Shown: piece by piece, positions 8,572 through 35,891 of the stretch
How the letters are laid out: each line of letters starts with the position of its first letter
How positions within the stretch are numbered: position 1 is the stretch's first letter
From: a virus
DNA length: 39,806 nt
Virus record (IMG/VR): IMGVR_UViG_3300037041_001100
Coordinates: 1-39,806 of that record
Reading direction: 5' to 3' (one strand)
The notes under the pieces: model-generated
What the model was told of the DNA's origin: nothing
Databases searched by the model: none
The model's input: the letters and a program-made list of their open reading frames with translations, nothing else
Made by a program: the position numbers and the translations under genes

Positions 8572-9459
8572 TCACCCGAGCAGCTTAGCCAATGTCTTCG
8601 GACCAGCAACGCCGTCAGCAGTGAGGCCGTTCTTTGCCTGCCACTCCTTCACCACGTTCGAAGTCCAAAACCCATAGATACCGTCGGCAGGGTCGATGCC
8701 CAGCTTCTCCTGAACCTGCTTCACCAAAGCGCCAGTGCTGCCGCGTTTCAGGGTTTCGTTCCCAGCGGCCGCAGGTGCAGGGGCCGAGGTCGGAGCAGCT
8801 TGGGCCGGGGCCGGAGCAGAGACCTTCCCGCCCAGCGCAGCCATGGCCTTGGCATAGCGAGCCTGACGGTCTGCGAGGCCAATGTCCCCACCATTGATGA
8901 TCTTGGTCAGCTTTACCACGTCGCCAGTGTCTGCAACCTCGTTCAAGTTGCGGCTACCCCAGAACCACAGCGCGCTTTCCAGTGCGCCCTTTTTGGTCAA
9001 GAGGTACACGGCAGCTTCCTCGGCAGTCATGCCAACGGTCTTGCCAAAGGCCGACACGTTGCTACGGCCCGTGCATTGCTTCAGACCTTTTCCAGAAAAA
9101 AGCCAGCCGTCCCCCTCCTTCACATTGCCTAAAGCGCCCGCCTTGGAACGGTTCTTGTCCATGTACACATAGTTGGCGATCTTCTCAGGCTTGCCAGCGT
9201 ACTCGGCGGCGTTCTCTTTGCCGGGGCCAAAGTAGCGCGGGAAAACCTTCAGGAGGGTGGCCTCCTTGTAGTTCAGGTTTTCCTGCAAGACCCGGAAGTC
9301 AGAGCTTTCGTGGGCGCACTGGCTGATGAAGCCTGCGATGCGCTTGTCGGTGGTGATGCCGTACTTGGGCAGCATCTCATTGAGGGCAGCGCACCATTCG
9401 CCGACTTCTTTATTGGTCGGGATCATCACGGCCAGTTGGGCTTCGGTAATCAGGCTCAT
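8572..9459 (-). CDS. Endolysin: GH19-type muramidase with peptidoglycan-binding domain
   Basis: A 295-residue endolysin with two domains. Residues 1-210 resemble the GH19 chitinase/endolysin family: AHES at 49-52 carries the likely catalytic Glu51, a second acidic residue lies at Glu60, and GKGLKQCTGRSN (123-134) is the family's substrate-cleft motif. An Ala/Pro linker (about 213-232) leads to a PG_binding_1 domain (KRGSTGALVKQVQEKLGI, then ADGVAGPKTLAKLLG). There is no signal peptide, so export through a holin is expected. AGGAG lies seven bases before the ATG. This is the last gene of the envelope/lysis cassette. The exact bond cleaved cannot be read from sequence. Confidence 0.92.
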   Translation of the reverse strand: MSLITEAQLAVMIPTNKEVGEWCAALNEMLPKYGITTDKRIAGFISQCAHESSDFRVLQENLNYKEATLLKVFPRYFGPGKENAAEYAGKPEKIANYVYMDKNRSKAGALGNVKEGDGWLFSGKGLKQCTGRSNVSAFGKTVGMTAEEAAVYLLTKKGALESALWFWGSRNLNEVADTGDVVKLTKIINGGDIGLADRQARYAKAMAALGGKVSAPAPAQAAPTSAPAPAAAGNETLKRGSTGALVKQVQEKLGIDPADGIYGFWTSNVVKEWQAKNGLTADGVAGPKTLAKLLG

Positions 9460-12512: not shown

Positions 12513-12751
12513 TTCGCAAGCCCCTGCAGGAGTCGGTCGATCTTGGCGTCGAGGTTGTCGATGCGCTGGATGACCCGGTTGATGTCGGTATGCACGTCAG
12601 CCCGCGTGACGTAGTCACGGGCCATCTCCTCGCGGGTGCGGTTCAAGAGGATTTGCAGGCGCTTCACCTCGTCGGCGTTGCCTTTCAGAATCCAGCCGAT
12701 CAGGGCCATGACGGCGGAGAGCGCGGCGCTCCAGAGCATCTCAGTGGTCAT
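12509..12751 (-). CDS. Membrane-anchored coiled-coil protein, candidate i-spanin
   Basis: An 80-residue protein with an N-terminal membrane segment (MLWSAALSAVMALIGWIL), then a charged helical coiled coil (RLQILLNRTREEMARDYVT, then NRVIQRIDNLDAKIDRLL). I recall this family from alphaproteobacterial and marine phages, where it is left unnamed. The topology (N-in, one membrane pass, periplasmic coil) and the four-base overlap with a lipoprotein gene suggest the inner-membrane half of a spanin pair. It overlaps its upstream neighbour by ATGA too, so the cassette is coupled throughout. The spanin role is inference. Confidence 0.8.
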   Translation of the reverse strand: MTTEMLWSAALSAVMALIGWILKGNADEVKRLQILLNRTREEMARDYVTRADVHTDINRVIQRIDNLDAKIDRLLQGLAK

Positions 12752-13302
12752 GCGATCCTCATCACTCGGAGATAGCTCTGCGGCTTCTCCTCTTTGTGGG
12801 TGTACAGCACCGTGTATCCATGGGTGCTTGCTTCTTGCTCAACGCGGGCAGCGAAGTCTTTGTCGCCGAGCCAGCAGGATGAATCGCCCTGACTCTCAGG
12901 CTCAGCGGCGGAGATGAGGACCCCGTTTCCGTTGTACCTGTCAATCGCCAGCTTTCCACGGCCTACCTTCTTGTAGACCTTCTTCTGCAGCATCTCGTGG
13001 GGCGGATAGAAGTAGTACCCGTAGAGAACCACGTCCGCCTCTGGGGCGTCTGTGTACAGCCGGAGGGTGTCGGTGCCGATGCTCTGCAGGTCCACGAAGT
13101 ACCGCTTCGTCTTGGCGTCCTTGATGAGATCGGGCACCGGGCCGATGAGCTTTGCCAGCGTCTCAAGCTTCGACATGACCACGCACACGGAGAACACCCC
13201 GCCACGCATGGTGTAGATGACCTCGCCAATATCCTCCAGCACGTCGGCAGGGAGCACCGAAGTGGACTTGTGGAGGTGAGATAGCGTGGTGCCTACGGAC
13301 AT
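12748..13302 (-). CDS. Hypothetical protein at head of lysis cassette
   Basis: A 184-residue protein I do not recognise. It has no signal peptide or membrane segment. The N-terminal part includes LETLAKLIGPVPDLIKDAKT; the middle is Tyr-rich (VVLYGYYFYPPHEML), and the C-terminus mixes strands and helices (EQEASTHGYTVLYTHKEEK). It starts three bases after the upstream stop, with only a weak ribosome site, and ends with an ATGA overlap into the candidate i-spanin. Its place between the fibre genes and the lysis genes does not settle which group it serves. Confidence 0.7.
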   Translation of the reverse strand: MSVGTTLSHLHKSTSVLPADVLEDIGEVIYTMRGGVFSVCVVMSKLETLAKLIGPVPDLIKDAKTKRYFVDLQSIGTDTLRLYTDAPEADVVLYGYYFYPPHEMLQKKVYKKVGRGKLAIDRYNGNGVLISAAEPESQGDSSCWLGDKDFAARVEQEASTHGYTVLYTHKEEKPQSYLRVMRIA

Positions 13303-13305
13303 GGG

Positions 13306-13572
13306 TTACTCGGCAGGGTAGGGATGACGGTCACGAATTTCTTGACGCTTAGCCAGCCACTCGGCCTCGGACGCCTCACCAGCCTGCCACTTGAAGAACA
13401 AGGGGTCAGCCTCTGCGGTGTACGCGATCTTGCGAAGAAACTCCTGTTGCTCCCTTGTAGGAGCCACGGGCTGGGGGGCTTGAACCTCAATAGCACCCTC
13501 TGGCGGCTCCGCACCGTCAACAAACGCCCCGAGAGGCTGCCCGTCGGCTGTGGTGAAGTATTTCACGCTCAT
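13306..13572 (-). CDS. Small fibre-assembly-like protein
   Basis: An 88-residue protein. Its C-terminal half (EADPLFFKWQAGEASEAEW, then an EIRDRHPYP end) matches a motif found at the end of phage tail-fibre-assembly-like proteins, and closely resembles the C-terminus of the protein at 16862-17233. It directly follows a fibre gene, the usual position for a fibre chaperone or assembly factor. The N-terminal half (MSVKYFTTADGQPLGAFVDG) is unlike that of the paralogue. Role inferred from motif and position. Confidence 0.75.
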   Translation of the reverse strand: MSVKYFTTADGQPLGAFVDGAEPPEGAIEVQAPQPVAPTREQQEFLRKIAYTAEADPLFFKWQAGEASEAEWLAKRQEIRDRHPYPAE

Positions 13573-13584
13573 CGTCGTTCCTCC

Positions 13585-14496
13585 TTACCGCCATGCCACC
13601 ATAGAGGCCCGCCAGTTGGCGTAGGTGATTTCAACAAACGCGCCGCCCCCACCAGTTCTATTTCGAACGTATACCCAGTAGGTGCCAAAATAAATGTTGG
13701 TCGCATCGGCGGCGATATTGATGCCCTGACCACTGTTTACGTCGTATGCCCCACCTGAAAAGTACACAACGTCATTGACGGCGTAGCCAAGTTGGGCCGA
13801 AACACAACGCAGATTCATCTGGATTTGAGACGGTCGCGCCCCCAGCCCATGAGCGAATGTGGCTGAGTAATCACGAGCAAGAGTGACCTCGGATGAGGTG
13901 TACCCCGGAGTTACGGCCCCGGCGAAAGCTGTGGCCGTCACGGTGCCGTTGACCTGCAAGGCGGTGGATGGGCTGGTGGTGCCGATCCCCACGTTGCCTG
14001 CGGCGGTGATACGCATACGTTCTCCACCTACAGAGAAAGATATGGGTCCGCCGCTGTTTTCTTGGATGAAAAAGCCATTCGAAGCACCGGACCCATATGA
14101 CGCAATACGGGTGGATGCAGCCAGAGCGCCAACGCCAAAGTGGATGGCTGCTCCGCCGTAACTCTGGTCCCCTGCGGCGATTTGCAGGACTGTTTCGCTG
14201 TACCCAGTAGGGCCCTGCTCAATACGCATCACTGCGCCAGTTGCCGTAGGTACGTTCGAAGTCCCTATACTAGCTACATTTAGCGCCGCCGAAGGCGTGG
14301 TTGTGTTGATCCCCACATAGCCCCCAAAGAACCCATTGACGACCCTCATGCGCTCAGTGCCACCTGTAGCCACAGCCACAGTGTCAGCAGCCGGGAAAAA
14401 GACCCCGGTGTTGGTGTCCTCACCCTGAATGGCGGGAGTGCTGGCGGAGCCGTTGTTCCCCGAGATGCCTGTGGTTCCGTCGATGGTGATTGACAT
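13585..14496 (-). CDS. Tail fibre / receptor-binding protein
   Basis: A 303-residue fibre protein. The N-terminus (SITIDGTTGISG) leads to EDTNTGVFFPAADTVAVATG (residues about 25-44) and then GTERMRV, a block shared with the large fibre at 19553-21841. A second fibre motif, AAGNVGIGTTSPSTALQVNG, lies at about 170-190. The C-terminal 100 residues look like a distinct aromatic-containing tip domain (YVRNRTGGGGAFVEITYANW). Such beta-rich repeats are typical of trimeric phage fibres. Which part binds a receptor cannot be seen. Confidence 0.85.
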   Translation of the reverse strand: MSITIDGTTGISGNNGSASTPAIQGEDTNTGVFFPAADTVAVATGGTERMRVVNGFFGGYVGINTTTPSAALNVASIGTSNVPTATGAVMRIEQGPTGYSETVLQIAAGDQSYGGAAIHFGVGALAASTRIASYGSGASNGFFIQENSGGPISFSVGGERMRITAAGNVGIGTTSPSTALQVNGTVTATAFAGAVTPGYTSSEVTLARDYSATFAHGLGARPSQIQMNLRCVSAQLGYAVNDVVYFSGGAYDVNSGQGINIAADATNIYFGTYWVYVRNRTGGGGAFVEITYANWRASMVAWR

Positions 14497-14508
14497 GGCT
14501 GTGGCCTC

Positions 14509-15243
14509 TTAGGTTATCGTTACGGTGCCGGACGAGGTGAAGGTGGAGGTGTTGCCGCCCCACGTTAGCTGGCAGTAGCCCGCCGCGCCGTTGCCTCCGA
14601 TGTACTCAAAGAGGTGGCCAAGGCCCTGTCCGCCGATAGTGACCGTGAGCGTAGTTCCATAGATCACCTGCACCGTGCCAGTGAGCAGGGTTCCTGCAAA
14701 TCCGCCTTGGCCCCTGTTTCCGCTGGAATCATAGGTCTGGGGGTTGTCTCCCCCGCCGCCGCCGCCAGCCGCGCCGTATGACGTGGACGGAGCGCTCTGG
14801 CCGTATTGTTGGGTAACACCACCTGCGCCGCCCGGGCCGTAGATCGTGCTTTCACCATCGCTGGGGGGATCGCTGAACACGAATGCGAAGCTGTATCCGC
14901 CGGAGCCACCAGCAGCGGTGATAGTCTGGATATTGTCTCCAGAAATAGATGATGACCCGCCAGACGTAGCGTATAGGCCATAGCCCGCACCGCCGTCGTC
15001 GGCACGTCCAGCCCCGCCCCCGCCGCCGCCACCGATGATCGCGTAGGTCACAGTGGCCGTCTTGGAGGTCCCACGGAAGTTGTCTAGGGTGATCGCTCCG
15101 CTCGTTGGTATGGTGGCTGTGCCAGTGCCGTCAGGGACATAGAGCCCGCCACGGTAATACTCATTCAGCGATATGGGGTCTGTGCCACCATACTCGGCCT
15201 GCAGAGCAGCAAGGGTCACGGGTCCGGTGAGCGGAATAGGCAT
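14509..15243 (-). CDS. Glycine-rich tail tip / adhesin protein
   Basis: A 244-residue protein. The N-terminal 60 residues contain LAALQAEYGGTDPISLNEYY, then IPTSGAITLDNFRG, an attachment motif common in phage tail tips. After this come repeated polyglycine runs (IIGGGGGGGAGRADDGGAG, then AAGGGGGGDNP) and a final strand-rich stretch ending TSSGTVTIT. Polyglycine blocks of this type form the receptor-binding tip of some phage adhesins (the T2/S16 gp38 class); the comparison is by composition only. It shares one base with the preceding gene's stop. Confidence 0.85.
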   Translation of the reverse strand: MPIPLTGPVTLAALQAEYGGTDPISLNEYYRGGLYVPDGTGTATIPTSGAITLDNFRGTSKTATVTYAIIGGGGGGGAGRADDGGAGYGLYATSGGSSSISGDNIQTITAAGGSGGYSFAFVFSDPPSDGESTIYGPGGAGGVTQQYGQSAPSTSYGAAGGGGGGDNPQTYDSSGNRGQGGFAGTLLTGTVQVIYGTTLTVTIGGQGLGHLFEYIGGNGAAGYCQLTWGGNTSTFTSSGTVTIT

Positions 15244-16178
15244 CAGGTGATCGTCCCGTAGGCAGTCACGTTGCCAGTGACGGTGAGATTGCCGCTGCCG
15301 TCGATACGCATACGGTTCACGCCGTTGTAGGCGAAGGTCAGGTTTGCCCCGCTTGCCGTCGCCGTCCAGCTCTGTGTGCCGCCAGTGATAGTGATGGTGC
15401 CAGACAGGCTTGGAGATGCGGACGGAGCCTTGGTGTCGATCTGAGTCTGGATGGCTGAGGTGACGCCATCAGTGTAGTTCAGCTCAGTGGCGGTGGCTGT
15501 CAGGCCCAAGCTGATGAGGGCGTTGGCAGGCGTCTCCAGAGTCCATGCAGAGCCGTTGCCGACTATGAAGTTGTCGGCTGTCGGGGCGAGGGCCGCGATC
15601 TGATCTAGGTTGGCATCCCAAGCCTGCACGTTGGTGCCGATGGCAACGCCGAGGTTGGTGCGGGCTGTGGCTGCGTCAGACGCACCCGTGCCGCCGTCGG
15701 CGACGGCAAGATCGGTGATCCCGGTGATCGTGCCGCCCGTGATCCTGACAGAGTTCATGGCGAAGTGGTCTGTCAGGTTTACGACCCCTGCAGCGCCGCC
15801 TCCGCCGTCGGAGTAGATGACGCCGCTGTCACCGTTGGCGATGGTGACGTTCGTGCCCGATCCTTGGGTGAACACCACAGACTGGCCGGACAGGTTGTAG
15901 ACGTAGTAAATCTTCTGGGCGTCGTTGGGCGAGATCGTGATCGTGTGCGTCCCGCTCGGGGTGCCACCGAGGATCAATGCCTTGTACTGCCCGTTGGACA
16001 GGATGCCGTTGGAGGTTGTGAGCGTCGAGGTGGTGCCGCTCAGCGAGAGAACGACCGAGCCGTTGATGGCGCGGTCGAGGATGTTCATGTTGTCGTTGAC
16101 GACATCGCCCCAAGTACCGTCGAGTTCGCCGTCGGCTGGGAGTTCGATGCCGAGGTTGTTAGTGTATGTACTGGGCAT
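15243..16178 (-). CDS. Tail fibre protein
   Basis: A 311-residue fibre protein beginning MPSTYTNNLGIELPADGELD and GTWGDVVNDNMNILDRAI, the N-terminal block of many phage fibres, which may attach to the tail. It continues with VADGGTGASDAATARTNLGV, a widespread fibre motif, then TATELNYTDGVTSAIQTQID and a C-terminal NGVNRMRIDGSGNLTVTGNV. It ends one base into the next gene. Likely a side fibre or a subunit of the host-recognition complex. Confidence 0.87.
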   Translation of the reverse strand: MPSTYTNNLGIELPADGELDGTWGDVVNDNMNILDRAINGSVVLSLSGTTSTLTTSNGILSNGQYKALILGGTPSGTHTITISPNDAQKIYYVYNLSGQSVVFTQGSGTNVTIANGDSGVIYSDGGGGAAGVVNLTDHFAMNSVRITGGTITGITDLAVADGGTGASDAATARTNLGVAIGTNVQAWDANLDQIAALAPTADNFIVGNGSAWTLETPANALISLGLTATATELNYTDGVTSAIQTQIDTKAPSASPSLSGTITITGGTQSWTATASGANLTFAYNGVNRMRIDGSGNLTVTGNVTAYGTIT

Positions 16179-16187
16179 AGGTCATCC

Positions 16188-16808
16188 TCACGCCGCGATG
16201 GTTGTCCAGATGGTCGCCGGGGTTGGCTCCACCTCTGTCCATGAATTTATAGCATCTGGATCGACCTCCGTCCACGCAGTTCCGGGTGTCGGTACGACTT
16301 GGCCCCAGACGGTGACCTTGCCGATGCTGCCCGTGGCGCTGACGCCAAGAGGAATGACGACCGCAGAGCCTGTGACGGTGACGGAGCCAGCAGCGCCAGA
16401 GGCGGAGACGCCGGACAGCGTGACGTTTGCGCTGGCTTGGATGGATACGGTGCCAACAGCTCCAGTGCCAGAGACGCCTGTGGGCTGTACGAGAGCCGAG
16501 CCCGTGACGTTGACCGTGCCGATCTGGCCGGAAGCGGAGACGCCCGTGAGGATGACCGCGGCAGGTGCGATGACATTGCCCACAGCGGTGTCGGCAGAGA
16601 CGCCGGACGGCTGCACCAGAGCAGAGGCGGTGACCGTGACCGATCCAGCAGCGCCTGTTGCGGAGACGCCAGTGAGGATAGCGGCGGCAGGGGCAATGAC
16701 ATCCCCTACGGCACCAGAGGCGGAGACGCCAATAACACCAACGATGACGTCGGAGGCTTCACCAAGGTCCGAGAATGGGGCTGCGGAGAAGGGACTAAAG
16801 CCAAACAT
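16188..16808 (-). CDS. Virion protein with seven GVSA repeats
   Basis: A 206-residue protein built almost wholly of repeats. After FGFSPFSAAPFSDLGEA come seven tandem units of 20-22 residues that begin G-V-S-A/G and continue as alternating small hydrophobic residues (for example GVSATGAAGSVTVTASALV). A different repeat closes the protein: three W-T units (AWTEVDP, SWTEVEP, IWTTIAA). The pattern predicts a beta-solenoid or stacked-strand fibre. I recall similar GVSATG repeat proteins in marine phages, annotated only as structural. The gene lies inside the fibre cassette. Confidence 0.82.
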   Translation of the reverse strand: MFGFSPFSAAPFSDLGEASDVIVGVIGVSASGAVGDVIAPAAAILTGVSATGAAGSVTVTASALVQPSGVSADTAVGNVIAPAAVILTGVSASGQIGTVNVTGSALVQPTGVSGTGAVGTVSIQASANVTLSGVSASGAAGSVTVTGSAVVIPLGVSATGSIGKVTVWGQVVPTPGTAWTEVDPDAINSWTEVEPTPATIWTTIAA

Positions 16809-16861
16809 GATGTCCCTCCTCTCTTGGGTTCATGGCAGTGTACCAGATGTTGCGGAGCTGG

Positions 16862-17233
16862 TCACGCCTCGGTCGGGTAGGGATAGCGGGCTTTGATCTC
16901 GGCAACCTTGGCGGTCCACTCTTCCATGGTGGCTTCCCCGCGCTGGGCCATGAAGAACAGAGGGTCTGCCTCCTGCGAGTAGGCAAACTGACGATATGCT
17001 TGCAGGTCAGTCTTGGTGGGCGGAAGTTGCTCAACAGGCTCTGGCGCAGGCTCAGGATCGACGACAACCCAAGCGCCATCGGAGAATTGGGCGCGCTGCC
17101 CCTCGCTCAAGGCGGGCGGCGCTTCCGTAACGCAACCAGCGGGGATCAGCCAAGCACCTTCATCAAGGGGATCGGCGTCAGCAACCGTTGGGCCAACGTA
17201 GAAGCCGTTGTGGTCTGTTTGATAAACTTCCAT
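16862..17233 (-). CDS. Tail-fibre-assembly-like protein
   Basis: A 123-residue protein. The N-terminal half (GFYVGPTVADADPLDEGAWL, then IPAGCVTEAPPALSEGQRAQ and FSDGAWVVV) matches the strand-rich head of tail-fibre-assembly-type proteins. A Pro/Glu-rich linker follows, and the C-terminus (EADPLFFMAQRGEATMEEW, then ARYPYP) is the same motif as in the protein at 13306-13572. It probably helps a neighbouring fibre fold or attach. Confidence 0.82.
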   Translation of the reverse strand: MEVYQTDHNGFYVGPTVADADPLDEGAWLIPAGCVTEAPPALSEGQRAQFSDGAWVVVDPEPAPEPVEQLPPTKTDLQAYRQFAYSQEADPLFFMAQRGEATMEEWTAKVAEIKARYPYPTEA

Positions 17234-17241
17234 GTCTGACC

Positions 17242-17832
17242 TCAGAACTTGATGCAGGCCAAGAGGGCCACGTTTCGAGCGCGAGTTTCGCCGCTGGTCG
17301 TGCTGGACACGCGGGCATCAGGTGATGTCGCGCTGTCTATGTTGTAAATCGTAGACGAGGATGGGGAACTCCCGCCAACCCTACTTGCTCCATTACCGCC
17401 GTTGCCCTGAACCATGCCGGAGCCTGCCGCCGAGCCACCGTAAGCACTGATGTTAGTTTGCAAAGTACCTGTAAGTCTTTGCATCTGGTCAAGCTGTGCC
17501 GAGCCAAAAGCGCGACCAGTATCAACACCCCTGCCATCATCCCAGCCACGCAAAAACTCGCCACGGAGGTCGGGTAGGGCAAATGTCGTTGACCCGTCCC
17601 CAACGCCAAACGTGGTTCCGATTGTCGAGAAAAGGGCGGCGTAGGTTGTGCGCGAGACCAAGGCACCGTTGGCCTTGAGCCAGCCTGTTGGTGCGGTGTT
17701 CATTGCAAAGGTAGCCACAGCCCCCGCAGGTACGCCAGCCAGCGTCACGCCATTGTTCGTCAACCCATTGGGAAAATCAGGCGCACCAGAGCCAGCGGCG
17801 TTCGTGATCGAGTTTGCACGGACTTGGGACAT
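17242..17832 (-). CDS. Tail collar-domain fibre protein
   Basis: A 196-residue protein whose ATG shares a base with the upstream stop (TGATG); longer in-frame starts are less likely. Residues about 40-105 form a phage tail collar domain (PF07484 type): APTGWLKANGALVSRTTYAA, then FGVGDGSTTFALPDLRGEFL with the conserved PDLRGEF. The C-terminus is Ser/Gly-rich and ends TRARNVALLACIKF, as is usual for this family. Collar proteins sit at tail or fibre tips and often help recognise the host. Confidence 0.92.
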   Translation of the reverse strand: MSQVRANSITNAAGSGAPDFPNGLTNNGVTLAGVPAGAVATFAMNTAPTGWLKANGALVSRTTYAALFSTIGTTFGVGDGSTTFALPDLRGEFLRGWDDGRGVDTGRAFGSAQLDQMQRLTGTLQTNISAYGGSAAGSGMVQGNGGNGASRVGGSSPSSSTIYNIDSATSPDARVSSTTSGETRARNVALLACIKF

Positions 17833-18221
17833 CAGACGGTCTCCTCGGTGTGGGTTTCTTGGGGCGACCACTCAACCCAAGAAGTCGTATTCTCGTCCCA
17901 CAGATACTGCTTGCCGTCTTCTGGGTGCGGAACAGGCGAGACCCAGTCTAGCGCGTTTTCACTGAACAACCAAGATGGGAAGGGCTTCGGCGCTATGAAC
18001 GCATCATGGGTCTGGTCATAGGCGTACCCCAGCCCAGCAAACCGCACCCTAAAGCTGCCACTGTAGCTTGTTTGGACCCACGTTCCGCCGAATAGGGACT
18101 GGCAAAAAGCAACGCCAACTGCCTCCCGCTCCTGCCCCTCGGCGTCCAGCAATTCGGCATTGTTTACCACAATCACCCGCACGACGATGTTGTCGGCATC
18201 AAGCTCTGCAAAGTGTGCCAT
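17832..18221 (-). CDS. Conserved tail-region protein (cyanophage-like family)
   Basis: A 129-residue protein starting MAHFAELDADNIVVRVIVVN and continuing with LFGGTWVQTSYSGSFRVRFA and DAFIAPKPFPSW, then KQYLWDENTTSWVEW. I recall this family well from cyanophages and other marine phages, where it lies among tail and fibre genes with no proven role. The Trp/Tyr-rich, strand-rich composition suggests a small virion protein. It is coupled to both neighbours through shared stop/start bases. Confidence 0.85.
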   Translation of the reverse strand: MAHFAELDADNIVVRVIVVNNAELLDAEGQEREAVGVAFCQSLFGGTWVQTSYSGSFRVRFAGLGYAYDQTHDAFIAPKPFPSWLFSENALDWVSPVPHPEDGKQYLWDENTTSWVEWSPQETHTEETV

Positions 18222-19060
18222 CAGAACGTAATGCTCCCCGAGCCAGTGAACCTGTAGACGTTAAAGCCAGCGTCCGTCGTAATTGTGGGAGACCCCGTTG
18301 TCGCGGAAGCCAAAGACAGCGTCCTGATGATAACCACCCCAGAACCACCAGCACCACCGGGATATGCTGCGCTTAAATAACCTCCAGCCCCACCCCCGCC
18401 ACCAGTGTTTGCGGTTCCGCCAGAGCCAGTTGCAACGCTTCCAGCGCCTCCTCCGCCAGCGCCGCCGGAGCCGCCAGTCCCACTGTTAAAACGACCGCCG
18501 CCACCGCCGCCAGCGTAAAATGTTGCTGTCCCGGTTACGCTGCTTTGGATGCCATCGCCACCGTTCCCGCCAAAACTTGAGCTACCAGAACTACCAGAAG
18601 CGCCCTTGCCCCCGCCGCCACCGCCGGAAGAACCGCTAAACGCTGATGCGCCTGAGTTCCCCTGTCCAGCCGTCCCTGCTGCGCCAGCAAACGGAGAGGC
18701 CGAGTCACACCCCCCGCCGCCGCCCGATCCACCAGATCGCGCAAACACCCCAGAACCGCCGCCACCGGGGTTTTGGTTGCCACCACCCCCACCGCCACCA
18801 ATGGCCGTAAGCCCCTGAAAGGAGCTATTGGAGCCGTTGCCTCCGTTGACAAACCCACCAGCGCCAGCACCACCGCCACCAACTGTGATGGGGTATGTGC
18901 CGGGAGAAATTGTAAGGGCGGAGTTTTCAAGCATTCCACCAGCGCCGCCGCCGCCGCCAATTGAAGAGCCTCCACCACCGCCTCCGGCGACGATGATAAA
19001 GTTCAGCGATATCTCAGACACTCGCTGCATCAAAAGGGCGGCGAAGACTGCTGACGCCAT
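18221..19060 (-). CDS. Glycine-rich tail tip protein
   Basis: A 279-residue protein. A short N-terminal part (FAALLMQRVSEISLNFIIV) precedes about 210 residues dominated by glycine, in runs of four to six, broken by short variable loops (NQNP, FVNGGNGSNSSF, CDSASPFAGAAG). The end is a strand-rich cap (GFNVYRFTGSGSITF). It resembles the polyglycine sandwich of receptor-binding adhesins, in which the variable loops contact the receptor; the comparison is by composition. It starts two bases after the upstream stop. It is the second glycine-rich gene of the cassette, after 14509-15243 by position. Confidence 0.83.
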   Translation of the reverse strand: MASAVFAALLMQRVSEISLNFIIVAGGGGGGSSIGGGGGAGGMLENSALTISPGTYPITVGGGGAGAGGFVNGGNGSNSSFQGLTAIGGGGGGGNQNPGGGGSGVFARSGGSGGGGGCDSASPFAGAAGTAGQGNSGASAFSGSSGGGGGGKGASGSSGSSSFGGNGGDGIQSSVTGTATFYAGGGGGGRFNSGTGGSGGAGGGGAGSVATGSGGTANTGGGGGAGGYLSAAYPGGAGGSGVVIIRTLSLASATTGSPTITTDAGFNVYRFTGSGSITF

Positions 19061-19061
19061 G

Positions 19062-19553
19062 TCAGGTCACCCCTGCGCCAGAGCAGACAAACGTGTTTGA
19101 GGCTACGCAAAGGACAGTCGCGATGCCGCGCTGTGCAAGCGTTCTGTTGCCCGTGGTCGCCGTCCCGGCAAGATACATGGTGACGCCAGAACCTTGCGTG
19201 ATGGTCTGCGAACTGCCGCTGTTGTTGTAAATGGTCACGTTTTGCCCAGCGGAAAACACGCCCGTGTTTATCGTCACGCCGCCCGTGGTGATGTTGATGA
19301 GCGCGCCGTTGTCTGTTGCGGTCGGAACATAAGCACCCGTCTTGTTGCTGTTGACGAGGTCTCGCAGGTTGCCGATCTGGTCGGATACAGTGCCCGTTGT
19401 GGTCACGTTTCCTGTGAACGCAGGGGACGCAGTTCCGACCAGCGTGGTGGTAGCATCCGGCAGCGTGAGCGTCCGATCCGTGTTGGTGTTCGGCGCGGCA
19501 ATGGTCAGTGTCCCGGTGCCGGAGGCGTTTGGAGTGAGTGCAATTCTGCTCAT
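19062..19553 (-). CDS. Short fibre protein
   Basis: A 163-residue strand-rich protein beginning SRIALTPNASGTGTLTIAAP, then NTDRTLTLPDATTTLVG, a motif shared by many phage fibres. Gly/Thr/Asn-rich repeats follow (GGVTINTGVFSAGQNVTIYN and SSQTITQGSGVTMYLAGT) and an end with two cysteines. Its start overlaps the stop of the large fibre gene by one base. It may be a fibre tip or an extension of the large fibre encoded just upstream. Confidence 0.83.
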   Translation of the reverse strand: MSRIALTPNASGTGTLTIAAPNTNTDRTLTLPDATTTLVGTASPAFTGNVTTTGTVSDQIGNLRDLVNSNKTGAYVPTATDNGALINITTGGVTINTGVFSAGQNVTIYNNSGSSQTITQGSGVTMYLAGTATTGNRTLAQRGIATVLCVASNTFVCSGAGVT

Positions 19554-21841
19554 CAGATCACCACATATCTTGCGCCAGCGGAGACCGTGATGGTCACCCC
19601 GGCGTCTACGGTTACGGGTCCAACGCTCATGGCGTTCTTGCCAGACGCGATGGTGTAGCTGGCCGTGATCGTCTGAGGGTTCTCGAAGAACACTGCACTG
19701 GCCACGCCGTTGACGTCAAGCGCCGTGGTCGGGGACGCGGTGCCGATGCCCACGTTCCCGCTGGCGTTGATACGCATGCGCTCGGTGGATGTCCCACCTA
19801 CGTTCTCGTAGAAAGCGAGTTGCGTGGCTCCGGGACCATTGAGGGAGGATATCCTAAAGCCGCTATTCCCAAGCCCGCTGTTTGTGGCATTGGAGTATGA
19901 GCCGTCAGTCTCAAAAACAATTGAGGCATCTGGCTCCCCCGCGTCTCCAGAATTGTCCCTGTCTCCGTTGATTACAAGGACGGCGGCGGTTCCGCCCCCA
20001 ACAATCGCCCTTGCAGTCTCCCCGGCCCCGCCTATGACGGACAGTTTTTCACCCGGGCTGGTCGTCCCAATCCCAAGCCGCCCACTCGCATCCAGCGTCA
20101 TAGCCTGCGTGAAGGTGATCGCATTGCCTGCCGTGCCGGAGGGGGCGTTGAACCAGAGGTGCGATCCGCTGCTGTTACCATACAGAGTGGCAGCGGCAGT
20201 TGAGACGTAACGATACGCAGCGCCATCGTAGTATGAGTTGTTGGTAACACCGAAGCGGGAATAACCCTGACCCCCAGCCATCTGAATTGCACTGACAGCC
20301 TGCCAAGCACTCGGCGTAACCCCAAGTCCGAGGTTGCCGGAGGCGTCGATCCTCATGCTCTCAACACCACCTTCGGAAAAGGCTATGGTGTCGGCAGCCG
20401 GGAAGAACATACCCGTGTTTGTATCACCAGTATTGGTGATCGACGGCGCGGCAGCAGAGCCATCCGCAAAGGACGCAACACCCGTAAATTCCGGGGACGC
20501 GGTAGGGGCTGCACCAATAAGTGACGGCGTGATGGTGGTCGAAGCAAGGCTCGTGACGTGCCCGAAGCCGTCAAGGCTGACGTCCTGAATGAACGTAGCA
20601 CCAGTGTTGTCTACGCTGGTCTGCGATGAGGTATCAGCGTGTGAGAGGCCGTCCGTGTCCTGCGTCAGGCCGCTGCCTGCGGCAACCGAGAAGGTAGTCC
20701 CAGCGAGGCCAATGCCGCCACCCGCCGAGTAGGTCGTGTCGGTCGAGGTGATCGTGAAGTTCGGGTACGTCCCCGTGATCGTCGTGGCACCTCCTTGGGT
20801 GAGCGTGACGACCTGATCCTGTGCAGTATTCGAGAAGACCGTGCCAGTGAGAGCTAGGCCGCTGCCAGCCGTGTACACCGCGGTGGAGGCGATCTGAGTG
20901 AACGTGATGTTTGTCGTCCCGAAGGTGATCGTTCCCTCGGTGTTGCAGACGTAAAGCTCACCAGCACCCGTAGCGCCCTGCTGGACAAAGAACGCATCGC
21001 CTGCGCCAAGTGCGTCAGGATCGCTGGGGCCGTAGCTGTCGGTATCGGTGGAACGCGTCAGGACCCAGTTGGTGCTGACAGAGCCAGTATTGGTGACCGT
21101 GTAGACGCCGTTCTGGGTCTGAGTGGTCTGTTGATAGATCAGAACCCGGTCGTTGGTCGCGACCGTCACGCCGTCGATGACAAGGGCAGCCTGCGTCCCA
21201 GCGTTGGTCAGCGTGGCTCCAACGCCCGAGGTGCCATTGTTGTAGGTGGCGTTCAGGTTGATCGGGGACTCGACCCGCACAGGGTCGTGGTAGTGGATGC
21301 CCGCCGAGGCAATGGTGTCCACATACTCCTTGGTCGCCGCCTGCAGAGGCAACGTAGGATCGGCGGGGAGAAGCACCGGGACAGTCGTCGTGATGGTGCT
21401 GTTCTCGACCTTGAAGCGCTCAGTGCCGCCCGTCTCGATGGATACCGTGTCAGCGGTCGGGAAGCGGATGGCTGTGTTGGTATCGCCCGTGTGGACGATC
21501 TTGTCCGCGACGAGCAGATCGCCATTGCCATCCAGATAGACGGACTTCGATGCGGCGTAGGAGATGAAGATGTTCTTGACGCCAACGCCCCAGCTCACAG
21601 CGGAGCCGCCGTTGCTCGACGCGAGGATGGTTGTGCGGGCTAGGGTCGGACCTGTGGTCGAGTAGGTGCCAATACCGACCTCCCAGTCGGTGTCGTTGGT
21701 GATCGCGTAGTAGGTCGTGTCTCCATTGGCCAACACAGCCCCGAAGGACTGATAGCCAGTGGCAGCACCTAGCAGGACGTAACTGGACGTGCTTGTGGTG
21801 CTCGTGGTTTCTTGGACACGATCAGCTACTACGAGGGCCAT
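19553..21841 (-). CDS. Large tail fibre protein
   Basis: A 762-residue fibre, the largest gene of the host-recognition cassette. The N-terminus (ALVVADRVQETTSTTSTSSY) is a likely tail-attachment region. Two blocks of the type N-T-G/A-x-x-F-P-x-A-D-T-x-x-x-x-x-G-G-x-E occur (about 120 and 460). The C-terminal third contains three fibre motifs of the form ASG-N/R-L/V-G-I/L-G (SGNLGLG, SGRLGIGTTSP, SGNVGIGTASP), and the end (SVGPVTVDAGVTITVSAGAR) is beta-helical in character. The same blocks occur in the fibres at 13585 and 15243. No peptidase or depolymerase motif is evident. Confidence 0.88.
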   Translation of the reverse strand: MALVVADRVQETTSTTSTSSYVLLGAATGYQSFGAVLANGDTTYYAITNDTDWEVGIGTYSTTGPTLARTTILASSNGGSAVSWGVGVKNIFISYAASKSVYLDGNGDLLVADKIVHTGDTNTAIRFPTADTVSIETGGTERFKVENSTITTTVPVLLPADPTLPLQAATKEYVDTIASAGIHYHDPVRVESPINLNATYNNGTSGVGATLTNAGTQAALVIDGVTVATNDRVLIYQQTTQTQNGVYTVTNTGSVSTNWVLTRSTDTDSYGPSDPDALGAGDAFFVQQGATGAGELYVCNTEGTITFGTTNITFTQIASTAVYTAGSGLALTGTVFSNTAQDQVVTLTQGGATTITGTYPNFTITSTDTTYSAGGGIGLAGTTFSVAAGSGLTQDTDGLSHADTSSQTSVDNTGATFIQDVSLDGFGHVTSLASTTITPSLIGAAPTASPEFTGVASFADGSAAAPSITNTGDTNTGMFFPAADTIAFSEGGVESMRIDASGNLGLGVTPSAWQAVSAIQMAGGQGYSRFGVTNNSYYDGAAYRYVSTAAATLYGNSSGSHLWFNAPSGTAGNAITFTQAMTLDASGRLGIGTTSPGEKLSVIGGAGETARAIVGGGTAAVLVINGDRDNSGDAGEPDASIVFETDGSYSNATNSGLGNSGFRISSLNGPGATQLAFYENVGGTSTERMRINASGNVGIGTASPTTALDVNGVASAVFFENPQTITASYTIASGKNAMSVGPVTVDAGVTITVSAGARYVVI

Positions 21842-26239: not shown

Positions 26240-27079
26240 CTAAACGTACTCGAAACGCCAGCCTTTGTAGGGCCCTTTGGCAAGAGGGTTTCCGCTTCGG
26301 ACAGAGCGCTGGATGGTCGGGAGAAAAATGCCAAACTGCTCTTTGATCGCCGTCGTTCTCGGGTACTCTGTGACAGCTCCATCGGGAGAGATCATTCTCA
26401 CAGCCTGTCCCATTTTAGCCTTGGCCTCCTCGCTGTGATGCTTCCCTAAGAAGTTCTTAGAGCCCTTGTTTGCCTCCGAAAGCTTACGCCGATGCTCCTC
26501 GGTTCTGACGTGGCCTTTGGCGTTTTGGTTTCCCCTAAGCGCGGCAGACATCTTGGCTCGGGTTTCCTCGGACGGAATGAAGCAACCCCCTCGGCCCTCG
26601 GCGATGACTGGTTTCAAGGCCTCTTTAATCTTCTCCCGAGTCTCCTCGCTGTGCTTGCGGCCAGACCTTGGGTCAGAAGTTTTCCACTGCTCAAGCGTGG
26701 CTTGGCGGAGTCTTTCTTTGATGTCCTCGGTTCTGGTTCCCCCGGTCAGTGGAGAAACCCCTGTGCCTTTGGTGCCGCGCCATGGAGCTTTTGCGCTACG
26801 TCCGGTGTTGTAACAGTGCGGCTTTCCCACGTTTTCTAACAGCCAGACATCTTCGGCATGCTCTAGGCTGCTACTCTCCGAGACATGTTCTACGACTTCG
26901 AACTTAAAGCAGTCCTCCCCGTGCTTGTTCCACGCGTTCTGCAAGTGCTTACAGTGGTGCTTGTTGGCGCGAAGAAGCCTGCGATGCTGCCTAAACCTGA
27001 CGGCGGTGTCTTGGGCACTGCCGACATAAAACTTCCCATTAACCACGTTCCGGATGTGGTAGATAACGTGCTTTGACAC
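26240..27079 (-). CDS. Free-standing GIY-YIG homing endonuclease
   Basis: A 279-residue protein from a GTG with GGAG six bases upstream; a TTG twelve bases earlier is less likely. Residues about 5-85 are a GIY-YIG nuclease domain (VIYHIRNVVNGKFYVGSA, then RFRQHRRLL with a likely catalytic Arg). Four NUMOD3-type DNA-binding repeats follow (SEETREKIKEAL, SEETRAKMSAALRG, TEEHRRKLSEANKG, SEEAKAKMGQAV), then a C-terminal IENR1/NUMOD1-like module (TAIKEQFGIFLPTIQRSVRS). It sits alone between the capsid gene's terminator and the next structural gene, the usual position of a mobile free-standing homing endonuclease. No intron boundary is apparent. Confidence 0.92.
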   Translation of the reverse strand: MSKHVIYHIRNVVNGKFYVGSAQDTAVRFRQHRRLLRANKHHCKHLQNAWNKHGEDCFKFEVVEHVSESSSLEHAEDVWLLENVGKPHCYNTGRSAKAPWRGTKGTGVSPLTGGTRTEDIKERLRQATLEQWKTSDPRSGRKHSEETREKIKEALKPVIAEGRGGCFIPSEETRAKMSAALRGNQNAKGHVRTEEHRRKLSEANKGSKNFLGKHHSEEAKAKMGQAVRMISPDGAVTEYPRTTAIKEQFGIFLPTIQRSVRSGNPLAKGPYKGWRFEYV

Positions 27080-27156
27080 TGCGAACTCCAATACATGTCT
27101 AGGTAAAGATATAGCGAGAAGTTACAGGGTTGGCAAGGCTTGCCACTTAAAAAGTA

Positions 27157-34748: not shown

Positions 34749-35202
34749 TGTCGATATCCTTGCGGTAGTAGCCTCCCAAGCGACTATATCCGAGCCGTTC
34801 TACAAGCTTTCCGACGCGCTCTTGGGACACATCGGAACCAAGTGTCACAAAAACAGCCTTTGCCCTGCAAAGTCTAGCCCATTCTGCAACGTGCTTGAGC
34901 AGGCGCGGCCCGACCATCGAACCTCGGCCTTCCTTTCCGACGTACCAAATGTGGTCGTAGACCACCAAGTCCTCAGAAAAGTAGGGCTTGTCGAGGTAGG
35001 CAGCGATCAACCCAAGAATCCGTCCGTCCTTCTCGCCCACCAAGACCAGCATGTTCGGGTTCAGAATGCAGGACAGCACTTCGGCCGCCGCCTTGGACTT
35101 GCTGAACGAGAGCGACCGGAACGATGTCTCCGCATGCATCTCCTCGGCCAACGCCACAATGGCCGGGAGGTCCTCTGGATAGGCTCTGCGGTAGTTGGCC
35201 AT
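34735..35202 (-). CDS. GNAT-family acetyltransferase
   Basis: A 155-residue GNAT protein: YRRAYPEDLPAIVALAEEMH at the N-terminus, MLVLVGEKDGRILGLIAAYL in the core strand, then VGKEGRGSMVGPRLLKHVAE (88-107), the acetyl-CoA pyrophosphate-binding loop, and a C-terminal VGKLVERLGYSRLGGYY. The gene overlaps the terminase start by 14 bases and shares a base with the preceding lysozyme-like gene. Substrate unknown: it might acetylate a virion protein, a host protein or a small molecule. Such enzymes are seen near the packaging genes of some marine phages. Confidence 0.9.
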   Translation of the reverse strand: MANYRRAYPEDLPAIVALAEEMHAETSFRSLSFSKSKAAAEVLSCILNPNMLVLVGEKDGRILGLIAAYLDKPYFSEDLVVYDHIWYVGKEGRGSMVGPRLLKHVAEWARLCRAKAVFVTLGSDVSQERVGKLVERLGYSRLGGYYRKDIDSVEV

Positions 35203-35891
35203 CAGGCGAGACTGGGCAAGCCAAACCGCTGCAGGGCAGCGCCGCGCTCGGGGGCAGGCTTCGGCCGCGGGCTCCTCTGCACCGCGTTGATCGACACGCA
35301 GGACCGGGATGCCACGTCGTAGTAGTAGCCTGCCGGGCAGTATTCCGGGGAGCCTTCGTTGATCATCTCAAAGGCCGAGATCAGGGAGTCCGCGGTTCCG
35401 CCTTCGGGGACGGCCGAGCCGTAGTCCAGAGGTTCGCCGCTCATGAGCCGCTCACTGCGGTCGTAGGCCTGCCCGGCCGAGAACTTCTGAGCGTAGTCGC
35501 GCAAGCTCGTGCCGAGGGAGTCCGACGGGTTGTACTCTCCGCCGGATTCGACAAAGTTCTTCATGCCGGATTTGCCGCCGAGGTGGGCCATGGCAATCAA
35601 GGACTCCGGGGTCATGGTGACACCAGCGACGTTCTTCCCGAGGTAGCGATCCAGCCCCTCGTTGAAGACGTAGTCCATGATGTCGGCTTCGTGCCAAGCC
35701 TGCGCGTCTTCCTGCACGGCAGCGTTGCCGAGGAAGTCTTCCATGGAGTAGCTCGTGCCCATGGCCTTGTTGTAGTCGGCAAGGCGGTCCGGGCCCCACT
35801 GGTACTTACCAGAGTAGCCCTCTTTGTTGACGATGCCGTAATTGCCGCCGCTCTCCGACTCGCCAAGAGCTTCCCGGAAGGTTTGAACCAT
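35202..35891 (-). CDS. Lysozyme/transglycosylase-like virion hydrolase
   Basis: A 229-residue protein. FREALGESESGGNYGIVN (5-22) followed by GYSGKYQWG (25-33) has the E-S-G-G-x-Y ... G-x-Y-Q arrangement of lytic transglycosylases, with Glu11 or Glu13 as likely catalytic acid. GLDRYLGKNVAGVTMTPESL, then IAMAHLGGKSGMKNFVESGG completes a lysozyme-like fold I recall from cyanophage and roseophage proteins. Two cysteines near the C-terminus may pair. Placed in the packaging module and away from the endolysin, it is more likely virion-borne, acting during entry. That role is inference. Confidence 0.82.
   Translation of the reverse strand: MVQTFREALGESESGGNYGIVNKEGYSGKYQWGPDRLADYNKAMGTSYSMEDFLGNAAVQEDAQAWHEADIMDYVFNEGLDRYLGKNVAGVTMTPESLIAMAHLGGKSGMKNFVESGGEYNPSDSLGTSLRDYAQKFSAGQAYDRSERLMSGEPLDYGSAVPEGGTADSLISAFEMINEGSPEYCPAGYYYDVASRSCVSINAVQRSPRPKPAPERGAALQRFGLPSLA

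Follow-up and report, generated by a model that had tools for sequence, protein, structure and literature searches.

How can a phage exchange the receptor-binding tips of its tail fibres without breaking the folding of those fibres? The question is raised by a cassette of eleven consecutive genes in IMG/VR record IMGVR_UViG_3300037041_001100, a partial genome of 39,806 bases (59.8% G+C) from an uncultivated virus of bacteria, which we analyzed whole and refer to as the window. An initial annotation had called these eleven genes a host-recognition cassette, and the calls hold at their positions on the minus strand, to which all cassette coordinates below refer. Reading runs from 21841 to 13306, and the genes are numbered g1 to g11 in that direction. 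Because L007, the closest of the related loci, holds the same eleven in the same order, we regard all of them as real genes. Our comparisons make it probable that the cassette encodes podovirus fibres of interchangeable parts, in which the tip of a fibre is exchanged together with the N-terminal domain (N-domain) of a predicted chaperone.

The partner genes in question are g6 (16862..17233) and g11 (13306..13572, 88 aa), located directly 3′ of the fibre genes g5 and g10. Each pairs a variable N-domain, of the collar class in g6, with a conserved, predicted helical C-terminal hairpin domain marked by the motif EADP. This domain is common to both proteins (52% over 60 aa, E 1e-15), with the consensus AY-x-x-EADPLFF...EW...EIKxRYPYP. 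Neither protein matches a Pfam family, and the hairpin belongs to PHROGs of unknown function (phrog_2432, phrog_2687 and phrog_5714), while the g6 N-domain matches the tail fiber assembly family phrog_105 (2.8e-5). Among viral contigs we found 70 non-redundant hairpin genes, every one with a variable N-domain followed by the hairpin. The gene upstream of them nearly always has a fibre-like ending and adjoins directly, with gaps mostly of -7 to +12 nt; in 91 fibre-partner pairs held out for the test described below, the gaps are mostly -4 to +1. None of the 161 upstream genes in the discovery and held-out sets is a fibre with an S74 chaperone domain. Among loci fetched regardless of partners the S74 counts are 0/13 versus 16/99 (Fisher p 0.21), which is only a hint from sequence that S74 fibres and hairpin partners exclude each other. 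The S74 domain (PF13884) is present in four relatives (L014, L070, L009 and L016), and no protein of the window, g1, g8 and g10 included, has a Pfam S74 match.

The N-domain of the partner follows the class of the tip in front of it. In the discovery set, type and class agree in 18/18 collar, 13/13 polyglycine, 6/6 YGVK-ending, 6/6 GTWRLMG...LRIS, 4/4 g10-type and 4/4 MEI-ending pairs, and similarity between N-domains tracks the tips (Mantel r 0.36, p 0.002) above the fibre starts (0.12) or the hairpins (0.05). For the held-out test, profiles were built from the discovery set, new loci were retrieved and tips already seen were excluded. Of the resulting 91 pairs, 87 match and none mismatches, the other four having an unclassed tip, against a mean of 44.7 and a maximum of 55 matches with shuffled labels. 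The sample is uneven, with 60 of the 87 in one class since that class served as the query; after removal of similar tips, 71 pairs remain and still include no mismatch. Over all loci there are 136 matches and 0 mismatches, and tip class F3 is carried by 27 clearly distinct fibre starts. Where a fibre of known tip class lacks a called partner, its neighbour is mostly another fibre gene or an open reading frame called in a wrong frame. N-domains of classes 1, 2 and 3 also occur, behind the same tips, fused to other C-terminal domains, chiefly Phage_tail_APC (PF16778). The partner in L083 has an N-domain of a class not used for the rule, and its relatives in L479 and L481-L483 follow fibres with similar endings, as judged by eye.

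Comparison of loci also indicates where the exchanged unit begins and ends. The slot between g9 and a 184 aa gene of unknown function (12748..13302), which forms its right border, is empty in L082 and L019, holds g10 and g11 in the window and L007, and holds another fibre with a hairpin partner in L083. Window and L083 have common DNA up to g10 codon 8 (81%) and none until g11 codon 56, from which they are 91% identical into the 184 aa gene and past it. The block from g10 codon 9 to g11 codon 55 (13408..14472) is thus replaced as one unit, with its right joint at EADP in g11 (codons 54-57, 13402..13413). In g6, whose EADP motif occupies codons 88-91 (16961..16972), homology to the partners in L117 and L019, which carry other N-domains, starts at codons 88 and 87, respectively. 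More widely, where partners with different N-domains have common downstream DNA, homology starts between -17 and +5 codons from EADP in 143 of 153 comparisons. These pairwise comparisons are not independent events, and the better count is by downstream context: 13 of the 18 contexts with several members hold two to six N-domain types. Within those contexts, pairs of differing N-domain with both genes readable have different tips in 106/106 cases, and the fibre start is kept in 55. By these sequence comparisons, tip and N-domain are swapped as a block, while the hairpin and the DNA that follows it stay in place.

A chaperone role for the partners, proposed by the initial annotation, is supported by where the genes lie, by the pairing code and by matches in a fold library. 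Aligned sequences of the g6 class gave an AlphaFold2 model of g6 with N-terminal strands followed by C-terminal helices (pLDDT 86.7), which resembles tail fibre assembly-like proteins in a viral fold library (E 2e-7). Foldseek against the PDB returned nothing for the model, and the g6 sequence has no match there. In phage Mu, with its Tfa (gpU), and in the invertible G segment of Mu and P1, a change of fibre tip brings with it a change of the matching assembly protein. That change is an inversion within one phage; the case here would be replacement between phages, with half of the partner gene travelling. The profile of the polyglycine-class partners finds as its best PDB match the N-domain of the Pam3 chaperone gp25 (7ypx), at an E-value of 0.54 that is suggestive only, and the full-length g6 model aligns weakly with 7ypx (Z 3.0). 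In Pam3 gp25 the variable N-domain binds the fibre and the C-terminal helices trimerise (PMC9608196). The Pam3 pair gp24/gp25 (PDB 7YPX; PMC9608196) is like g6 in that the fibre-tip partner has a variable N-terminal beta domain and a helical C-terminal domain, yet the C-terminal domains are unlike, the EADP hairpin having about 50 aa where that of gp25 has about 100 aa. Also unlike Pam3, there are several pairs per phage here, with tip and N-domain exchanged across many phages, as known from sequence. Alteromonas phages A5 and V22 offer a further comparison, a fibre and cognate chaperone common to unrelated marine phages (PMC10579305, PMC7289586); their chaperones resemble intramolecular S74-type domains, and the text consulted does not describe a two-part code of N-domain and handle. 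Phage_tail_APC proteins are like the hairpin partners in carrying the same N-domains behind the same tip classes. We considered the hairpin as a divergent Phage_tail_APC domain, which it resembles in alignment, and rejected this because profile comparison was negative (0.65% probability); g6 and g11 have no match to PF16778.

Several observations weigh against this picture or limit its reach. In the PHROG search g11 matches only families of unknown function, and its N-domain finds no match of known function. The 7ypx match is not significant alone, and the chaperone role of g6 and g11 is a prediction. Some hairpin genes have N-domains or tips that fall outside the six classes and so beyond the tested range of the code. 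The point near EADP at which homology resumes coincides with the start of a conserved domain, and it therefore bounds the crossover and does not locate it. In HTVC027P, neither the collar gene gp70 nor gp71 falls in any of the defined classes.

From two glycine-rich adhesins and two putative fibre chaperones the annotation had concluded that two fibre/adhesin assemblies are formed in parallel, perhaps with a wide or switchable host range. We find three candidate sets of fibre and partner instead of two, g3-g4, g5-g6 and g10-g11. The first rests on g4 (17832..18221), a member of phrog_7759 of unknown function (1.2e-40), whose relatives lie directly 3′ of a glycine-rich gene in 11 of 16 non-redundant cases; g4 is probably a third type of partner. 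Parallel assemblies on one particle, with such a host range, are less likely than not: g1, g3, g5, g8, g9 and g10 coexist with differing anchors and tips and with two or three partners, but just 6 of the 35 cassette-spanning loci carry any hairpin partner, at 0-2 each, and the number of pairs varies. Nor was a switch found, with no reverse transcriptase in the partial record; invertases were not searched for. Less probable again is a permanent role for g6 and g11 as receptor-touching tip or cap proteins, like gp38 of T-even phages and S16. The N-domain does vary with the tip, and the A5 and V22 chaperones may act as fibre caps (PMC10579305). An N-domain that follows the tip class is, however, what a folding partner should have; the hairpin is common to all, and g6 and g11 are free of polyglycine or adhesin-like features.

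Exchange extends beyond the partner genes to the fibres of the whole cassette. We retrieved 154 related viral loci and compared the 35 distinct ones that span the cassette, whose length varies from 3.7 to 12.4 kb. Gene 21851, g7 and gene 12509 form a conserved backbone together with the starts of g1 (about 445 codons) and g8 (about 153 codons), and this backbone encloses two islands in which fibre segments and genes have been swapped. Nine relatives lose DNA homology to g1 at codons 444-447, L004 at codon 500 and L117 at codon 142; for g8 the homology ends at codons 151-154, 177 or 209. These break points lie at or near the short linker motifs AAPTASPEFTG, GGTITG and ARTNLG; the left joint in g1 (codons 444-447, 20501..20512) places AAPT before ASPEFTG. 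L007 is collinear with the window and yet has exchanged segments, with g1 codons 446-684 (19790..20506) and g10 codons 53-199 (13900..14340) replaced between conserved flanks; the end of g10 is about 99% identical. The starts of g9 and g10 type are found in island 1 in L014 and in island 2 in the window. Modular exchange of fibre parts, as the annotation had suggested, is therefore strongly supported by sequence comparison with relatives, though not by the motifs on which it was based. That receptor-binding parts are exchanged applies elsewhere and fails for L007: there the middles of g1 and g10 differ and the C-terminal ends are kept, and therefore not every exchange hits the receptor-binding end.

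The same comparisons bear on whether the blocks common to g1, g8 and g10 arose by old internal duplication and slow divergence with no exchange between phages. Fibre-shaft repeat motifs are indeed widespread, and relatives have tandem copies inside single genes. Against this, DNA identity falls from 72-92% to none at fixed codons and then returns to about 90% (L007, L083). In addition, 75 bp of g1 of the window are 97% identical to g10 of L007, and a 553-bp stretch carrying the S74 chaperone, which sits behind a g10-type start in L014 and behind a g1-type one in L070, is 89% identical between these two genes despite their different anchors. These DNA comparisons already contradict a duplication-only account, which we consider very unlikely. 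The least credible account is programmed diversification by a diversity-generating retroelement or DNA inversion: the fibre islands are hypervariable, but the partial record has no RVT_1 match in a search whose control works, and the changes are whole-block replacements, with unrelated sequence in the relatives' slots, rather than point changes.

The motifs themselves fared less well. The block DTNTG-x-FFPAADT, reported for three genes, is present in g1 from codon 473 (DTNTGMFFPAADT, codons 473-485, 20387..20425) and in g10 at codon 27, with a second g1 copy, DTNTAIRFPTADT, at codon 120. g8 has only a degenerate RMRIDGSGNLTVTG, and neither DTNTG-x-FFPAADT nor a true SGN-x-G-I/L-G. Nor do the blocks occur in different orders in the window, as had been claimed; the order is fixed, DTNTG followed by ERMR and SGN-x-GIG. 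Similarity between g1 and g10 is far above chance (E 3.8e-12 and 9.5e-10), and that between g1 and g8 is weak (1.6e-4). The idea that DTNTG marks a recombination site, with special synonymous conservation, was rejected, as codon choice in 35 non-redundant copies shows no striking constraint. Separately, a 47-bp part of the g1 block SGNLGLGVTPSAW (20303-20349) is 95.7% identical to an otherwise unrelated Manatee Spring phage (MW202825), where the matching gene is annotated as an endo-N-acetylneuraminidase.

Descriptions of the individual proteins are broadly borne out: g5 is a collar protein, g3 is glycine-rich, g7 has seven repeats and g6 and g11 have a common domain, with g9 falling below the PF21722 cut-off; the labels 'tip' and 'adhesin' in the annotation are names and not results. 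On the island 1 side, g1 (19553..21841) encodes a 762 aa fibre protein (phrog_18345 tail fiber, 3.1e-21) in which codons 1-444 are conserved, the middle is exchanged and the C-terminal end is conserved. The 163 aa product of g2 (19062..19553) is short and fibre-like, and its N-terminal 40-60 aa recur in relatives as the start of other fibre genes. The glycine-rich fibre or adhesin g3 (18221..19060) passes Gly_rich_2 (PF21722, 3.8e-19; 70 bits versus a cut-off of 24.3) and has no match among PDB sequences up to E 1, where solved S16 gp38-type adhesins were sought. The tail collar fibre g5 (17242..17832, 196 aa) contains PF07484 (2.4e-25; 88.7 bits versus a cut-off of 24) and matches the short tail fibre 9cuy in the PDB at 2.9e-9. 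Its start is more likely the ATG at 17832 than the GTG at 17871, because in the shorter reading the start and the g4 stop overlap, and the protein has the 196 aa of its L007 counterpart.

Island 1 ends at the gap before g7 (16809..16861), which contains a ribosome-binding site and is conserved among relatives whose upstream genes are wholly different. Several of these relatives have in it TGGTATAAT, resembling an extended -10 promoter, and this element may let g7, g8 and island 2 be transcribed separately from island 1; neither a promoter scan nor an Rfam scan of the cassette region was informative. The backbone gene g7 (16188..16808) encodes seven GVSxxxxxGxV repeats as read from the sequence, and its length among relatives ranges from about 190 to 550 aa, with 22 aa more in L007 within the W-x-P C-terminal repeats. 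In the fibre gene g8 (15243..16178), the N-terminal anchor (codons 1 to about 153) is conserved and the C-terminal part is exchanged in relatives. The polyglycine protein g9 (14509..15243; phrog_30374, 4.6e-11) has an N-terminal anchor and scores 17.4 bits against the 24.3 required for Gly_rich_2. The fibre protein g10 (13585..14496) has the DTNTG block at its start and its C-terminal tip at codons 200-303; used as a query, this tip finds the L007 contig as its sole match. Codons 149-188 of g10 match the start of the Bdellovibrio fibre bd2133 (8OND; PMC10769870) over the ERMR..GNVGIGTTSP block (E 2e-6); both are chimeric fibres, bd2133 being cellular and not of phage origin. The 184 aa gene beyond g11 is present in no locus that lacks g9, and is possibly g9's own partner.

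Beyond the cassette, the window encodes terminase, portal, capsid and late genes. Its large terminase (TerL) is 52-59% identical to those of the Pelagibacter phages HTVC023P and HTVC027P and of phage DSL-LC04. An anchor of g8 type occurs in HTVC027P and DSL-LC04 as well (35-36%), preceded, as judged by eye, by a g7-like gene. Closeness of TerL and common gene order place the contig among HTVC023P-type podoviruses. A host search through bacterial genomes gave only ten weak hairpin matches, several in Rhodobacterales. Other features of the window are a GIY-YIG-type homing endonuclease gene (26240-27091) adjoining the major capsid protein gene, and two well separated endolysin-like genes (8572-9459 and 35202-35891).

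The arrangement that we propose for these fibres would place in each fibre gene an anchor at the start, which stays with the phage lineage, and a tip at the end. Comparison shows many fibre genes to be followed directly by a partner, as g5 by g6 and g10 by g11, with g3 and g4 as a candidate pair, and the partner joins an N-domain matching the tip class to the constant EADP helical hairpin. It also shows the exchange of tip and N-domain to be joint, with a fixed anchor to their left and the hairpin and its downstream DNA to their right. By analogy with Pam3 gp25 and Mu Tfa, the N-domain may grip the folding tip and the hairpin may trimerise. Recombination across the conserved sequences of anchor and hairpin could then move the cognate pair as one block. 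An incoming tip would bring its own folding clamp and use the resident trimerising handle, and the phage would gain a new tip without losing a needed helper. The linker blocks SPxFTG, DTNTG, ERMR-SGN-x-GIG and GGTITG may serve as further joints for exchanging the middles of fibres. We also lean, with some reserve, toward a more general plug-in system in which the block of tip and matching N-domain moves between lineages, interchangeable C-terminal handles (the EADP hairpin, Phage_tail_APC and further short helices) are those of the recipient lineage and form the right-hand joint, and the chaperone gene is routinely split at a fixed point, so that one half goes with the tip and the other remains.

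The G segments of Mu and P1 are a known case of modular fibres with cognate chaperones. Fibres of modular build, chaperones cognate to them and the transfer of both together have been described before (PMC10684548, PMC10579305, PMC9608196). In the open literature we found no description of the hairpin family as a fibre partner, of a matching code at such scale, or of a joint inside the partner gene. With these results, a widespread family of unknown function (phrog_2432/2687/5714) gains a probable function, and the helper for a given fibre tip becomes predictable from sequence alone, which bears on the expression of phage fibres as reagents. The proposed arrangement would account for the exchange of receptor-binding tips without broken fibre folding, and it bears on the evolution of host range.

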